From Sphingomonas cannabina (GTDB taxonomy: Bacteria > Pseudomonadota > Alphaproteobacteria > Sphingomonadales > Sphingomonadaceae), in NCBI RefSeq assembly GCF_021391395.1, contig NZ_CP090059.1, positions 3,023,001 through 3,087,000 on the forward strand: a stretch of DNA of 64,000 bases. The letters are read 5' to 3'. A program made the position numbers and the translations under genes. The stretch's first letter is position 1. Each line of letters begins with the position of its first letter. Below the pieces are notes generated by a model, which made no database searches, was not told where the DNA came from, and worked only from the letters and a program-made list of their open reading frames with translations. Below, one piece after another: positions 50,840-56,984 of the stretch.

Positions 50840-50869
50840 GGCCGGCTGCACAATCGCGTGCAGCCGGCC
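50840..50869. terminator. Hairpin between P4H and TonB receptor 3
   Basis: GGCCGGCTGCAC-6 bases-GTGCAGCCGGCC, a perfect 12-bp stem, lies 26 bases past the P4H stop. No T-run follows on the plus strand; CCCTTTCATT follows on the minus strand. It may end transcription of the convergent genes. Confidence 0.5.
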
Positions 50870-51014: not shown

Positions 51015-53804
51015 TTAGAAGGTCGTGCTGAGCCCGATCGAGAAGACCTGACCGACGTTGTAGCGGTTGATGTAGACGACGTTGCCGTTGTCGAACGTCT
51101 GCCGCTCGTTGAACCGGGTCTTGGTCAGGTTGCGGGCCTCGAGCTTGAGCTCGAACTTGCCGCCGGCGAGCTCGAAGCCCTGGCGGGCGACGACGTCGAG
51201 GCGGATGCCGGGGCGCTCGACGATGTCCGGCTGGAACCCGACGCCCGACAGCAACGACGGGCCGCGGTTGGTCACGCGGTCGCTCGCATAGTTGAACAGC
51301 ACCGTCAGCTGCGAGAGCTGCTGCGTGTCCTCGATGCCGAGCTGCAGGTTGACCAGATGATCCGACTGGCCGGTCAGCGGCGCGCCGTCGCGGAACTGGA
51401 GGTTCGCCGGGCCGAATCCGGTCGGACAGCCGCCGAGCGTCTGGTTGAGGACGTTCGGCACACAGCTCGAATCCGCGGTGATCTCCGAATGGGTATAGGT
51501 GTAGTTCGCGATCACCACCGCCCGGCGCGTGGCGAAGAAGCCGCCAAGCGTATCGAGCGGGAAGTACTTCTGCACCTCGACCTCGCCGCCGTACAGCTGC
51601 GCCTTGGGAAGGTTGGTGAAGCCGGTCTGCAGGCGGTCGTCGGCGCCGGTGTAGAAGCCGACCTGCTCGATCGGATTGTCGATCTTCTTGTAGAAGCCGG
51701 CGAGCGTGAACCGCTGGTCACGTGCGAAGAACCATTCGAAGCGGCCCTCGAAATTGAGCAGCTCAGAATCCTTGAGCAGCGGGTTGCCGAAGAACAGACG
51801 GTCCGAATCCGGATCGCGGAACTGCTGCGGCGCCAGTTCGCGGAACTGCGGCCGCGAGATGGTCTTCGAAGCGCTGGCACGCAGCTGCATGTCCGGCGCG
51901 AAGTTCCAGGTCAGCGTTGCCGCCGGCAGCCAATAATCGTTCTTGAGCTTGGTGGTGGGGCTCGCGACCGGCGTTACCCGCTGATCGCCGCTCTCGTAAC
52001 GGACACCGATGACGGCCCGCAGGCCGTCGAGCAGCTCGCCTTCCGCCTGAGCATAGCCCGCGTGGATGCGCAGCTTGGCGTCATAGGCATAGGCACCGAG
52101 CGGCGTGTTGAACTGCATCTCGATCGTGCACGCGCCGGTGCCCTGGAGCGGACAGGCGTTGTTCACGACGTCGGGGCTCAGCAGATAGTCCGGCCGCAGC
52201 AGGTTGAAGGGATAGCCGGGCGCCGTGCCGCCGCCCGCGCTGGTCTGGTAGTTGAACTGCAGGCGCCGCGAGAAGCGGTCCGTGTCCGAATAATAATAGC
52301 CCGCCGACAGCGTGATCGGGCGCGGCGCGTCGATCTTGTACGACAGGTCCGCCTGGCCCGTCCAAAGGTCCTCGTTCAGGTCGGAGAAGATGATCGACGC
52401 GAACGGGGAGAAGCGCTGCGTGACCTGCCAGGCGCCGTTGCACTGGAAGCCGGTCGCGCCGTTGCCGCCGTCATATTGGATCGGCTGCCCCGTAGTCGTC
52501 GTCGACGAGCATAGATAGTCGAACTGGCGCTCGTAAGGCGCATTACGCTTCGAGTTGGCATAGGCACCGCGCACGTCGAGCTTGAACGCATCCGTCAGAT
52601 GAAATTCGCCGACGAGCTGCGATTCGATCAGTTGCCGCTCGAACCAGTTGGTGTTCTGCTGGAAGCGCAGGCCGCTGGCGTTGTTGTAGACCTCCGCCGC
52701 CGAGCCGCGCGCCTGCTTGAGCACGTCACGGATATAGATGTTGGTCCAGCGGATCGTGTTCTCGCCGAACGAATAGCCGACGCCGAGCAGCGCGTTGCCG
52801 ACGATATGATTGTCGGTGAGCAGCGTGTGGAAATCGTTGCGGATCGCACCCGTCTCGGTGACGCTGTCCTGCTGCAGGATCGAGCGCGTGCGGAAGCTGT
52901 TGCTGTAGCCGATCGACCCGATCACGCCCAGCCGGCCGCCGCCCATGTCGAACGCGCCGCCGCCGCTGATCTCGGCCGACCAGTTGGCGGGGAGCTGGTT
53001 GTTGCGCTGGAGCAGCGTGGTCGAGGCGTTGGACAGCTGCAGCACCTGCTCGGCCGGGATGAGGCCGGAGTTCTTGGTCGCGTTGCGGATGAAGTCCGGG
53101 ACCTTGCGGGTACCGTCGTCGAAGCCCAGCCAGTCGGTGTCGCCGCCGTAATAGGTATAGCCGAGCTCGCTCGTCGTGGCGGTGTCCGCGGACAGCGAGC
53201 CGCCGACCTTGATGAAATTGTCGTCCGGGATCGCCTTGGTCGTGAGGTTGATCACGCCGCCGCCGAACTCGCCGGGATAGTTGACCGAATAGGTCTTCTG
53301 GATCAGCGCCGAACCCACGATCGTGGTCGGGAAGATATCGAGCGGGACCGAGCGGCGCAGCGGCTCGGGGCTCGGCAGCGGCGACCCGTTGAGCAGCGAC
53401 GAGGAATAGCGGTCGCCGAGACCACGGACATAGACGAAGCCGTTGCCCACCACGCTGAGGCCGGTGACGCGCGTCAGCGCGCCGGCGATGTCGCCCTCAC
53501 CAGTCCGCGCGATGTCGGCGCTCGAGAGCACCGACACCACCTGCGGCGTGGCGCGGATCGTGTTCGGGATGTGCCGGCCGACGACGACGATGTCCTGGGC
53601 CGCGCTAGGATCGACGCCAGGCGCGGAAATCTCGACGTCCTGCTGCTGATCCGTCTGCGGAGCCTGGGCATCCTGCTGCGGGGCAGCCGCCGCGGCCGGA
53701 TCGCTGGCCGGAGGAGCGTTGCCGGTCGTCTGCGCCAACGCCGCCGGCGAAACGAGTTGCGAGGTCAGGAGAAGAAGGGTGGCGTAGGCGAGGCGTCGCT
53801 GCAT
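51015..53804 (-). CDS. TonB-dependent outer membrane receptor 3, partner of the lipoprotein
   Basis: 929 residues. Signal peptide about 1-25 (ending PAALAQ), an Ala/Gln/Asp-rich linker (about 30-70), the TonB-proximal QDIVVVGRHIPNTI, and the plug with YVRGLGDRYSSSLLNGSPLP and SVNYPGEFGGGVINLTTKAIP. The barrel ends in IGLSTTF. The ATG at 53804 is preferred over an in-frame TTG at 53819. It follows the lipoprotein by 84 bases on the same strand, so the pair forms one unit probably controlled by the array at 55599-55708. Confidence 0.93.
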   Translation of the reverse strand: MQRRLAYATLLLLTSQLVSPAALAQTTGNAPPASDPAAAAAPQQDAQAPQTDQQQDVEISAPGVDPSAAQDIVVVGRHIPNTIRATPQVVSVLSSADIARTGEGDIAGALTRVTGLSVVGNGFVYVRGLGDRYSSSLLNGSPLPSPEPLRRSVPLDIFPTTIVGSALIQKTYSVNYPGEFGGGVINLTTKAIPDDNFIKVGGSLSADTATTSELGYTYYGGDTDWLGFDDGTRKVPDFIRNATKNSGLIPAEQVLQLSNASTTLLQRNNQLPANWSAEISGGGAFDMGGGRLGVIGSIGYSNSFRTRSILQQDSVTETGAIRNDFHTLLTDNHIVGNALLGVGYSFGENTIRWTNIYIRDVLKQARGSAAEVYNNASGLRFQQNTNWFERQLIESQLVGEFHLTDAFKLDVRGAYANSKRNAPYERQFDYLCSSTTTTGQPIQYDGGNGATGFQCNGAWQVTQRFSPFASIIFSDLNEDLWTGQADLSYKIDAPRPITLSAGYYYSDTDRFSRRLQFNYQTSAGGGTAPGYPFNLLRPDYLLSPDVVNNACPLQGTGACTIEMQFNTPLGAYAYDAKLRIHAGYAQAEGELLDGLRAVIGVRYESGDQRVTPVASPTTKLKNDYWLPAATLTWNFAPDMQLRASASKTISRPQFRELAPQQFRDPDSDRLFFGNPLLKDSELLNFEGRFEWFFARDQRFTLAGFYKKIDNPIEQVGFYTGADDRLQTGFTNLPKAQLYGGEVEVQKYFPLDTLGGFFATRRAVVIANYTYTHSEITADSSCVPNVLNQTLGGCPTGFGPANLQFRDGAPLTGQSDHLVNLQLGIEDTQQLSQLTVLFNYASDRVTNRGPSLLSGVGFQPDIVERPGIRLDVVARQGFELAGGKFELKLEARNLTKTRFNERQTFDNGNVVYINRYNVGQVFSIGLSTTF

Positions 53805-53888
53805 GGCCGTGTCATCCAATGAGAATTATGGGCAAATGCCGGGGCGGCTTGGGAGCCGCCCCGACACGGTTGCGCATGTGCGTTCGCC

Positions 53889-55496
53889 TCAGCGGCCGTT
53901 GCAGGAGAAGTAGACCGAGTTGAACACCGGCGGGCCCTGGTCCTGCAGCGCCTCGTTCTTCGGGCGAATGGTCGAACGGTCGGACGCGCTGGTCTCGCCG
54001 GCGATCATGTTGACGCAGGCGACGTTCGTCGGCGTCTTCACGATGCCATTGACGAAGGTCATGTCGGCACCGCCGCGCAGACGGATCGCCGCCGGCGCAT
54101 TCGCCGTCTGGATGAAGGTGAAGTTGGCGTAGCGGCCCCAGGTGCGGGGCAGCAGGTCCTCGGCACCGTTCGAGTCGATCTCGGTCGAGAAGGAGTCGGC
54201 GGTCGCGCCGGAGACCTTCTGCGCCGCGATCATGAACTGGATGAAGCCGCGCCAGCCGTTGTCGACGTCGAAGCCGTCGTCGTCGGCGCCGGTCACCGCG
54301 ATATACTTGATGTTGCTGGTGCCGCCGAAAATCTCGATGCCGTCGTCGGCCGAGTTGTGGCTCTGGATGTGGTCGAGCACCGTGCCCGAGCCGGTCGCGC
54401 CGAGCGTCAGGCCCTGCAGCTCATTGCCGTCGGAGATGGCGATGCCGCTGTAGCGGATCTGGACATAGGACATCTGGCCGCTGCTGTCGTTCTCGGCCGT
54501 GCCGCCGTAGAAGCGGCCGGTCACGCCTTCGATCGCCTGCTGGCAAGGCGTGCCGCTGGTGCCGCCGGTGCCGGTCGCGCAGACTGCCGTGGTCGAACGG
54601 CCGAGCAGGATGATGCCACCCCACTGGCCCTGCGTCGAATCGCTGACGCCGTTGTTGGCGAGGTTCTGCTGCGAGGTGAAGATGATCGGCGCGGTGCGGG
54701 TGCCGATGGCCTGGATCTTCGAACCGCGGTTGACGAGCAGCAGGTCGTTGGTGGGCTCGCTCGAATCGGCCGCGATCACCACGCCGGCCTCGATCGTGAG
54801 GGTCACGCCCGCACCGCCGGTGGCGCCGAGGTCGGTGCCGACCTCGGTCTGGCCGCGAAGGCGATAGAAGACGCCGGGAATCTTCGGCAAGGTGAGATTG
54901 GCCGTGATCGCCTGCGGAATACGGCAGGCGCGGAAGGTCTGCACCAAGCCGTCGTCGGTCGTGCCGGTCGGGCAAGCCGCGGCGCTGCCTCCGGTGCCGA
55001 CGGCCGGCACGGCGGTGCAAGCCGCGCTGGCGCCGCCGAAGTTTGCGCTGGTCGAGTTGCAGGTCCAGTCCTGGAAGGCCGTGTCGGTCGGGCCGTTGAG
55101 GGCACCGGCATAGTTGGTGCTGGTGAAGAAGGCATTGAGCGTCGAGGGATCGGTCGCCGGCGTCGCCGAGGTAGCGCTCGTCGGGTAGACGCCGTTGAGG
55201 AGGCTCGAGGCGTTCGCCGTGCCGTTCACATTGTTGTTGCTGCCGGTGTTGACGATCACCAGCTGCTCGTCGGCGGTGATCGTGAGGCTGCCCTGCGTCG
55301 TCGCCGCTGCGAACTGTGCCGCGGTGATCGGGCCGGTCGGAGTCGGCGTGGGAGTCGGGGTCGGCGTCGGAGCCGGCGGAATGACGATGGTGCCGCCGCC
55401 CGGCGAGGCGACGTTGTCCGCGCCGTTGCACGATGAAAGCGCCGCCGAGGCGGCCGTCGTCAAGAGAATAAGGCCGAGGCGCTGGAAGCTTCGCAT
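53889..55496 (-). CDS. Predicted surface lipoprotein with beta-helix-like repeats, unknown function
   Basis: 535 residues. The lipobox AALSSCNG puts the lipidated Cys at 23; a Pro-Thr repeat linker (PTPTPTPTPT, about 42-54) follows. The middle (about 230-440) has Gly/Asn/Asp-rich segments such as GRFYGGTAENDSSGQMSYVQ and HIQSHNSADDGIEIFGGTSN, typical of right-handed parallel beta-helices. I do not recognise its family by function. Placed before TonB receptor 3, it is a plausible surface ligand-binding or enzymatic partner, similar in logic to SusD-type lipoproteins but not homologous as far as I can see. Confidence 0.82.
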   Translation of the reverse strand: MRSFQRLGLILLTTAASAALSSCNGADNVASPGGGTIVIPPAPTPTPTPTPTPTGPITAAQFAAATTQGSLTITADEQLVIVNTGSNNNVNGTANASSLLNGVYPTSATSATPATDPSTLNAFFTSTNYAGALNGPTDTAFQDWTCNSTSANFGGASAACTAVPAVGTGGSAAACPTGTTDDGLVQTFRACRIPQAITANLTLPKIPGVFYRLRGQTEVGTDLGATGGAGVTLTIEAGVVIAADSSEPTNDLLLVNRGSKIQAIGTRTAPIIFTSQQNLANNGVSDSTQGQWGGIILLGRSTTAVCATGTGGTSGTPCQQAIEGVTGRFYGGTAENDSSGQMSYVQIRYSGIAISDGNELQGLTLGATGSGTVLDHIQSHNSADDGIEIFGGTSNIKYIAVTGADDDGFDVDNGWRGFIQFMIAAQKVSGATADSFSTEIDSNGAEDLLPRTWGRYANFTFIQTANAPAAIRLRGGADMTFVNGIVKTPTNVACVNMIAGETSASDRSTIRPKNEALQDQGPPVFNSVYFSCNGR

Positions 55497-55598
55497 GAGG
55501 GTCTCCGTGTCCGATCCGACGGTTGTGCGGGAAGGGCCTGTTTTGCCCGGGATCGACTCGGTTCCCCCCGGCCGACCTTGCCGTGGTCGCTAGGGGCG

Positions 55599-55708
55599 CT
55601 GTGTGACGGCGAGATGCCAGTTCAGCGACGTTTCGGAGACTCTGAGATGACAGTTGGATGCCATTATGAAGTCGTTTCAGCGACTTATCGATGACTATTC
55701 GATGACAC
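55599..55708 (-). promoter_or_regulatory. Array of ten 11-bp phased repeats, candidate tandem Pho boxes
   Basis: Read on the minus strand, ten consecutive 11-base units follow without gaps: GTGTCATCGAA, TAGTCATCGAT, AAGTCGCTGAA, ACGACTTCATA, ATGGCATCCAA, CTGTCATCTCA, GAGTCTCCGAA, ACGTCGCTGAA, CTGGCATCTCG, CCGTCACACAG. Position 3 is G and position 5 is C in all ten; T at position 4 in seven. A Pho box is two 11-bp direct repeats beginning CTGTCAT, and unit 6 has that heptamer exactly. Units 1-3 and 6-8 match 25 of 33. The array is about 100 bases upstream of the lipoprotein gene. Confidence 0.65.
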
Positions 55709-55715
55709 TCATGGA

Positions 55716-56984
55716 CTAACGCAATGAATCAAAACGCTTTCCTGCCTTGAGCACAAGCGCGACATGCTCGATCGCGGCGATGTCCTTGGTCGGGTCGCCG
55801 TTGACCGCGATCAGATCGGCGGCGAGGCCCGGCCGAACCGCGCCTATCCGATCCTGCCAGCCGAGGATCGCCGCATTGCCCGAGGTCGCGACGATCAGCG
55901 CCTGCGCGGGGCCGAGGCCCCATTCCGCCATCAGCTCGATCTCGCGCGCGTTGCGGCCGTGCGCAAAGACGCCGGTGTCGCCGCCGGCGCACATTCGGAC
56001 GCCCGCCTTGCGCGCGACGGCGAAGCTCGTCCGCTTGCCCGCAATCGCTGCCGGCTCGGGTCCAGCGCCATTCCAGCCGGCGTAGCGCGCGATCGCATCG
56101 GAAGCCGCCAGCGTCGGGCAATAGGCGACATTCCTCGCCTTCATCAGCGCGAATACCTCGGCGGTACCGTCGTTGCCGTGCTCGATCGTATCGGCACCGG
56201 CCAGGATCGCGCGCCGCATCCCCTCTGCGGTGCTGGCGTGGACCGCGACCTTCCGGCCCGCATCGTGCGCGGCGGCGATACCTGCGGCGAGCTCCTCCTG
56301 GCTGAAGGTCGCGCGGCTCGGCTCGCCCGGCCCCCAGCGATAGTCGGCGTAGAACTTCACCCAATCTGCCCCGCGCGCGATCTGGCGCCGCACGCCCGCG
56401 ACGACGCCCTCGACGCCGCTCACTTCCTCGGCGCCCTGCGGCACCTCGAAGGCATATCCCTTGGGACCATAAGCGCCGGTCGCGACCAGCGCGCGATTGG
56501 CGATCAGCAGCCGCGGCCCCGGCACGATCCCCTGCGCGATCGCCACCTTGAGCCCCGCATCGGCATCGAGCGCTCCCTCGGTGCCGAGGTCGCGCACGGT
56601 GGTGAAGCCCGCCGCCAGCGTCGCCCGCGCCGCCGCCACCGCGCGCGCGGTGCGGAGCGCTAGGGGCTCCGTCACCACCTGATCGTTCCAGCTCGTCTCG
56701 TTATAGGGGTGCAGGAACAGGTGGACGTGGAGATCGATCAGCCCCGGCATCAAAGTCGTACCGGGCAAGGCGATTGTCTCGCTTCCGATCGGCGCCGTCA
56801 CGTCGGGACCGGCCGCTACGATCTTCTCGCCTTCGACCAGCACCTTCCAGCCTTCGTGCGGCTTGGGATCGACGCCGTCGAACACGCGATCGGGCACGAG
56901 GAGGATCGGATGCGAGACGTCCTGCGCATTCGCCGCCGGCATCATCAACAGTGCAGCCATCACGGCGAGCGTGCGTCCGAACAT
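55716..56984 (-). CDS. Secreted amidohydrolase (imidazolonepropionase/Xaa-Pro dipeptidase-like)
   Basis: 422 residues, signal peptide about 1-20 (ending PAANAQ). The metal-binding motif is LMPGLIDLHVHLFLHP; further ligands appear in WVKFYADYRWG, VAVHASTAEGMRRAILAGADTIEHG and AGGDTGVFAHG, the complete amidohydrolase set. It hydrolyses an amide or peptide-like bond in the periplasm; the substrate is unknown. The ATG at 56984 is preceded by GGGAAGGGAG. It is divergent from cutC. Confidence 0.9.
   Translation of the reverse strand: MFGRTLAVMAALLMMPAANAQDVSHPILLVPDRVFDGVDPKPHEGWKVLVEGEKIVAAGPDVTAPIGSETIALPGTTLMPGLIDLHVHLFLHPYNETSWNDQVVTEPLALRTARAVAAARATLAAGFTTVRDLGTEGALDADAGLKVAIAQGIVPGPRLLIANRALVATGAYGPKGYAFEVPQGAEEVSGVEGVVAGVRRQIARGADWVKFYADYRWGPGEPSRATFSQEELAAGIAAAHDAGRKVAVHASTAEGMRRAILAGADTIEHGNDGTAEVFALMKARNVAYCPTLAASDAIARYAGWNGAGPEPAAIAGKRTSFAVARKAGVRMCAGGDTGVFAHGRNAREIELMAEWGLGPAQALIVATSGNAAILGWQDRIGAVRPGLAADLIAVNGDPTKDIAAIEHVALVLKAGKRFDSLR

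Follow-up and report, generated by a model that had tools for sequence, protein, structure and literature searches.

A predicted PhoB operator of ten contiguous 11-bp units in Sphingomonas cannabina, built on a six-unit core conserved in related promoters

Introduction

The PhoB box consists of 11-nt direct repeats arranged head to tail, with seven conserved and four less conserved bases and a CTGTCAT core (PMC4415409), and it overlaps the -35 site (PMC3348028). Head-to-tail binding of PhoB to 11-nt repeats is established (PMC4415409, PMC3348028). At the pitH2 promoter of Streptomyces coelicolor, PhoP protects a 64-nt region with six 11-nt units, of which four form the core and are filled first and two are less conserved (PMC7866108). 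In Caulobacter, ElpS (CC0170) is produced under phosphate starvation, stalk extracts from low-phosphate medium are reported to contain both ElpS and CC0171 (PMC2996285), and the PhoB regulon includes TonB-dependent receptors (PMC11208175).

Here we describe an array of 11-bp units in a 64,000-nucleotide stretch of Sphingomonas cannabina DNA, which as a whole is called the window. With the Escherichia coli PhoB box it shares 11-nt repeats, the 7+4 layout, the CTGTCAT core and, as predicted from its position, the -35 overlap (PMC4415409, PMC3348028), but the E. coli box is defined as two units, whereas six are conserved here and ten follow one another without gaps in the window species. Its likeness to the pitH2 operator lies in the succession of several 11-nt units; the pitH2 operator differs in serving an actinobacterial PhoP with a GTTCACC core (PMC4415409) and in having six units rather than ten. 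The adjoining genes recall ElpS and CC0171 in that a lipoprotein gene is followed by a TonB-dependent receptor gene, a comparison of layout and not of sequence, and the two loci differ beyond that point, where type II secretion genes come next in Caulobacter and an ORF on the opposite strand, with no NCBIfam match, comes next in the window. ElpS/CC0171 may be regarded as the nearest functional analogue of the window gene pair.

Results and Discussion

The array and its genes

The sequence-only reading of this DNA had described ten gapless 11-base units with invariant G at position 3 and C at position 5, a CTGTCAT heptamer and a distance of about 100 bases to the next gene. Read on the minus strand from 55708, all ten units carry both bases, the heptamer is present in unit 6, and 102 bases separate u10 from the ATG of the lipoprotein gene. 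The units u1 to u5 are GTGTCATCGAA, TAGTCATCGAT, AAGTCGCTGAA, ACGACTTCATA and ATGGCATCCAA, and u6 to u10 are CTGTCATCTCA, GAGTCTCCGAA, ACGTCGCTGAA, CTGGCATCTCG and CCGTCACACAG; the array thus has the 11-nt direct repeats with a conserved CTGTCAT-like 7-mer that characterize a PhoB box (Table 1). Seven unit cores are of the type GTC, two GGC and one GAC, and a scan of the window for phased G-N-C runs of at least five units found this array as the only one. The array starts 7 bases past the stop codon of an upstream amidohydrolase ORF (lower end 55716). An Rfam gathering search of 55400-55900 gave no match.

The identity count given for the proposed higher-order duplicate is also borne out: units 1-3 and 6-8 are identical at 25 of 33 positions, a maximum with P = 0.005 when bases are permuted within columns, and shifting the array by five units leaves 34 of 55 positions identical (P = 0.016, same permutation). 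Because u1-u3 resemble u6-u8 in this way, local duplication is a plausible origin of u1-u4; the case for a partial block duplication within the array is plausible and not strong.

Table 1. Positions of the array, the promoter element and the adjoining genes within the window.
Feature	Position	Strand	Remarks
Complete array of ten PhoB-type half-site units, 11 bp each, no gaps	55599..55708	-	u1 starts at 55708, u10 ends at 55599
Six-unit core, u5-u10	55599..55664	-	Shares the register of the six-unit segments in orthologues
Upstream extension by four units, u1-u4	55665..55708	-	Additional to the conserved core
Putative -10-like element TAGCGA (in CCCTAGCGA)	55587..55592	-	10 bp after the u10 7-mer; role suggested by conservation
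Lipoprotein gene, 535 aa	53889..55496	-	LSSC lipobox-like motif (by eye); C-terminal part rich in beta structure
GC-rich hairpin lacking a T run	53841..53862	-	Between lipoprotein and receptor genes; by eye
TonB-dependent receptor gene	51015..53804	-	ATG at 53804; listed ORF from TTG at 53819
Terminator-like hairpin past receptor gene	50840..50869	-	Terminator scan

Pfam and NCBIfam searches placed the window lipoprotein in no family; its relatives carry the precomputed Pfam family PF28492. The structure model of the lipoprotein has a mean pLDDT of 61.8, with residues 1-167 below 50, and a Foldseek comparison of this model with the PDB returned 257 matches at E <= 10 and none at E <= 0.001, the best of these weak matches being beta-helix enzymes and tailspikes. 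The receptor gene likely shares an operon with the lipoprotein gene, and the terminator-like hairpin is likely the end of that operon, terminator-like sites in the 5-kb region numbering 5 against a mean of 2.9 in shuffles. A TonB-receptor relative lies downstream on the same strand at 80 of the best 80 loci of our scan, and the order of an ElpS-type pair, lipoprotein gene and then receptor gene, was found in the window and at all 80. When relatives were sought across the class, 3 of 114 genomes gave a match. The hairpin between the two genes is of a type able to set unequal expression within an operon.

Orthologous promoters

The named orthologues are the best 80 loci of one scan, 77 of them titled Sphingomonas; one (L135) was incomplete and 79 were used. 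The 11-base periodicity is present in these promoters, and the best segment in the 260 bp before the gene has six units in 77 of the 79 and eight units in the other two, namely L134, where the two extra units lie at and beyond the -10, and L111, where the upstream extras are one good and one poor unit. All six core units score positive in 67/79 of these best loci and all six are of the G-N-C type in 2/79, which means that single orthologue units are often poor and that the window, with G-N-C in ten of ten, is unusually regular. Across the same 79 promoters the mean scores of the core units range from 3.4 to 11.2. The unit position directly upstream of the core is positive in none of the 79 and further positions in 3-8%, and the alignment of these orthologues contains no conserved signal upstream of the six-unit core.

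A search of the genus at E <= 1e-140, which overlaps the named set, found orthologues in 137 of 295 genomes, the window's own included; leaving out one incomplete locus (G520), 135 promoters other than the window's were examined. Six units leading up to a TA dinucleotide were found in 133 of the 135, eight in L188 (the same record as L111) and four, with no TA at that register, in L294. A ten-unit array occurred in none of the 135 genus promoters and in none of the 79 named orthologues. The description of this platform as unusually long therefore stands, with six units in relatives and ten in the window, while the accompanying statement that PhoB boxes normally comprise two to four units has to be amended, six being the usual number here. 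The window retains the six-unit core and adds four units to it. Among more distant family loci, 20 of 29 have a segment scoring at least 20, of which 19 lie 104-303 bp and one 1179 bp before the matched part.

The nearest named relative among the best 80 loci is that of S. naasensis (L083), in which core units 2 and 3 align with those of the window (CTGTCATTTCA with CTGTCATCTCA and GTGTCTCGCAA with GAGTCTCCGAA, respectively). The same amidohydrolase, which lies upstream in only 7 loci, precedes the core in S. naasensis (76% over 386 aa), and no further units are found between the two. With about 4% of units positive per upstream position, four successive positive units would be expected by chance about 3 times in a million if the positions are independent. 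Two assemblies with a Sphingomonas-type locus, titled Bacillus sp. 2B10 (L126, 71% identity) and Arthrobacter sp. TPD3018 (L130, 69% identity), are likely mislabelled or contaminated.

In 79/79 named orthologues the last core 7-mer is followed by the TA at a distance of exactly 10 bp, C precedes this TA in 94% and 95% of them and its context is mostly CCTA(A/G)C, although the columns for G, C, T, A and TA are inflated because the anchor of this alignment of loci from the best 80 favoured them. In the genus set, where the TA was not used in placing the arrays, it stands at the 10-bp register in 134/135 promoters. From the T of the TA to the start codon there are 73-105 bp in 78 of the 79 named orthologues and 135 bp in one. 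The -10-like element of the window is GC-rich. In E. coli the PhoB box lies about 10 bp before the -10 element; the window array, in the -35 position and about 10 bp before an element whose -10 role is suggested by its conservation, appears to occupy the position expected of a PhoB activator site, one register before the conserved -10-like element.

Matrix scores

With a unit matrix trained on the 79 orthologous promoters of other species (from the best 80 loci, the window excluded), the array scores 84.2 and its single units 4.2-12.9. The runner-up phased segment in the window (15.5) is the opposite strand of the array itself, and elsewhere in the window scores reach at most 13.5. The highest control scores were 20.6, from 60 first-order Markov sequences (64 kb each, both strands scored), and 25.6, from 2000 local ones (264 bp each). 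Outside the promoters' own strand and place, the relatives' loci (0.9 Mb) contain 16 segments of at least 18, of which the highest, at 23.1, is the only one above 22.9; six of these segments are those promoters read on the opposite strand.

An independent half-site matrix was built from 59 E. coli PhoB sites published from ChIP-seq (PMC10294691). By this matrix the array scores 39.0 against at most 21.0 in 60 Markov sequences (64 kb each), the next best window segment scores 15.1, and periods of 8-10 and 12-14 give at most 16.9, confining the high score to period 11. The array therefore stands above background by a PhoB matrix, and the PhoB interpretation offered by the sequence-only reading is supported both by this score and by the periodicity in orthologues. 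Column-permuted versions of the matrix (n = 150) reached 35.7 at best, with a mean of 15.7, but the permutations were taken in order, so that the first column mostly stayed where it was and other columns often did too, which makes this a weak control. Unit by unit, u1 to u10 score 10.9, 8.2, -1.0, -2.6, 4.2, 10.9, 0.1, -1.9, 4.2 and 6.0, so that four of the ten (u3, u4, u7 and u8) are near zero or negative and strong pairs (u1-u2, u5-u6, u9-u10) alternate with weak ones (u3-u4, u7-u8).

Phosphate-control genes and further sites

In the 16 kb around phoB, where the scan covered the ORFs except in the stretch between pstA and phoU, matches to PhoR, PstS, PstC, PstA, PhoU and PhoB lie on one strand. 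PhoB scores 337 bits against a cut-off of 296, and PhoU, PstA and PstC are also above their cut-offs; PhoR (294 vs 334 bits) and PstS (159 vs 207 bits) fall below the curated values. The PhoB model TIGR02154 has 45 matches in the genome, PhoB being the only one above the cut-off. The best matches of its DNA-binding domain are the E. coli PhoB chains 3t72, 1qqi and 1gxp, and it is identical to E. coli PhoB across RTVDVHIRRLRKA, which we take to be the recognition helix, so that the genome presumably encodes a cognate PhoB with the same helix.

The same motif precedes the pst genes, as three units between phoR and pstS (22.9 with the orthologue-trained matrix). Two PhoB-type units (23.6) at L004 1500-1521 (G000:C1:2158524) lie about 25 bp before the likely ATG of a PHO4/Pit-type transporter. 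A TA at activator spacing is absent from both this site and the one before pstS; elsewhere, PhoB is known to repress Pit. Six units (50.6) at L071 2954-3019 (G000:C1:1895953-1896018) mark the start of the gene for a small TPR-like protein, where they overlap or abut the start codon, too close for an activator plus a -10, and may be a repressor site or point to a miscalled start. A diacylglycerol-kinase-like gene has four units (32.6) in its vicinity, and a CBS/MCP-signal gene has three (25.9) at its start. The loci outside the phoB region were preselected by GTCA pattern searches, so that their scores are not an unbiased survey, and several of them scored low or contained other repeats. A two-unit PhoB-type site on the minus strand at about L008 1497-1518 (G000:C1:3342177) has as neighbours a CDP-alcohol phosphatidyltransferase gene and a weak match to myo-inositol-phosphate synthase, and may have to do with phosphate-linked lipid remodelling.

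Because 13 of the genome's 45 PhoB-model matches span nearly the whole model, another regulator of the OmpR family, a family that commonly reads 10-11-bp direct repeats, might use the array instead of PhoB. ChvI is one such candidate, its site in S. meliloti being reported as GCC-N8-GCC and likewise of period 11 (PMC9731502). However, none of the ten unit cores reads GCC and the array contains no GCC-N8-GCC, the core fits the E. coli PhoB ChIP matrix, and similar units precede the pstS of this genome. For these reasons the ChvI reading was rejected, and we consider use of the array by any OmpR-family regulator other than PhoB quite improbable.

Proposed mechanism

The array is in all likelihood the operator of a PhoB-activated promoter that drives a surface lipoprotein/TonB-dependent receptor operon, a reading that draws on conservation, matrix scores and position, on the PhoB and pst genes and further sites of this genome, and on the phosphate-starvation link of the Caulobacter pair. 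Under phosphate limitation, PhoR would phosphorylate PhoB, and PhoB~P dimers would line up head to tail on the array with a monomer on each 11-bp unit, as is established for E. coli PhoB, with the promoter-proximal dimer on u9-u10 in the -35 region recruiting sigma70-RNA polymerase. Relatives would offer three contiguous dimer sites and the window species two more upstream, five in all, and the two added sites should raise occupancy or sharpen cooperativity. The alternation of strong and weak pairs suggests nucleation at the strong dimers and cooperative filling between them. We propose tentatively, and with more doubt than conviction, that five contiguous dimer sites in the order strong-weak-strong-weak-strong are filled cooperatively, that a graded phosphate signal is thereby answered by a sharper or stronger switch, and that a single lineage went from three dimers to five.

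A different view of u1-u4 accepts the six-unit core as a functional PhoB operator, and disputes only whether the four units added to it do anything: slippage or block duplication would have produced them as a neutral side effect. Relatives manage without them (the next unit is positive in 0/79 from the best 80 loci), u3-u4 are negative with the E. coli matrix, and u1-u3 are similar to u6-u8 (25/33, P 0.005), yet G-N-C and the exact phase are intact in all four units, both matrices rate u1 and u2 as good sites (12.9 and 9.4 orthologue-trained; 10.9 and 8.2 E. coli), and a neutral copy would be expected to decay, subject to its age. We hold this neutral origin to be a serious contender, at somewhat less than an even chance.

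If the PhoB-operator reading is right, what is new is a conserved three-dimer PhoB platform together with its predicted growth to five dimers in one species. Contiguity as such is not new, since six contiguous units are known for Streptomyces PhoP. A non-exhaustive literature search, mainly of titles and the openings of abstracts, found no report of a ten-unit PhoB array. The locus offers a natural dose series, in which one promoter has three predicted dimer sites genus-wide vs five in one species at a fixed -10-like register, and it puts in testable form the question of how extra contiguous sites for an OmpR-family activator affect threshold, slope and maximum. It would also tie a large unnamed sphingomonad lipoprotein/TonB-receptor family (relatives in PF28492) to the phosphate-starvation regulon.

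Other 11-bp repeats in the genome

A period of 11 bp might have a non-regulatory cause, either a minisatellite or a phased A-tract that curves the DNA. Long 11-bp arrays of GTCGC units do exist at five examined places in this genome, and the last two unit positions most often carry A (70% each). The GTCGC arrays, however, have different units and are set in a repeat with shared flanks, whereas the window array is conserved in relatives by sequence, position and register. Both the minisatellite and the curved-DNA readings were rejected on the grounds of this conservation and of the unlike GTCGC units, and we regard them as having hardly any chance of being correct.

The GTCGC-type tandem arrays have 4 to 17 copies and resemble the PhoB array in period only. 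They lie at L075 (G000:C1:1201105), L076 (1410440), L077 (1577251), L078 (1818850) and L080 (2100637); a flank like (G)TCAA(C/T)TTAGTCAAC is found at all five places, and GCAATGTAGGATTT at two at least.
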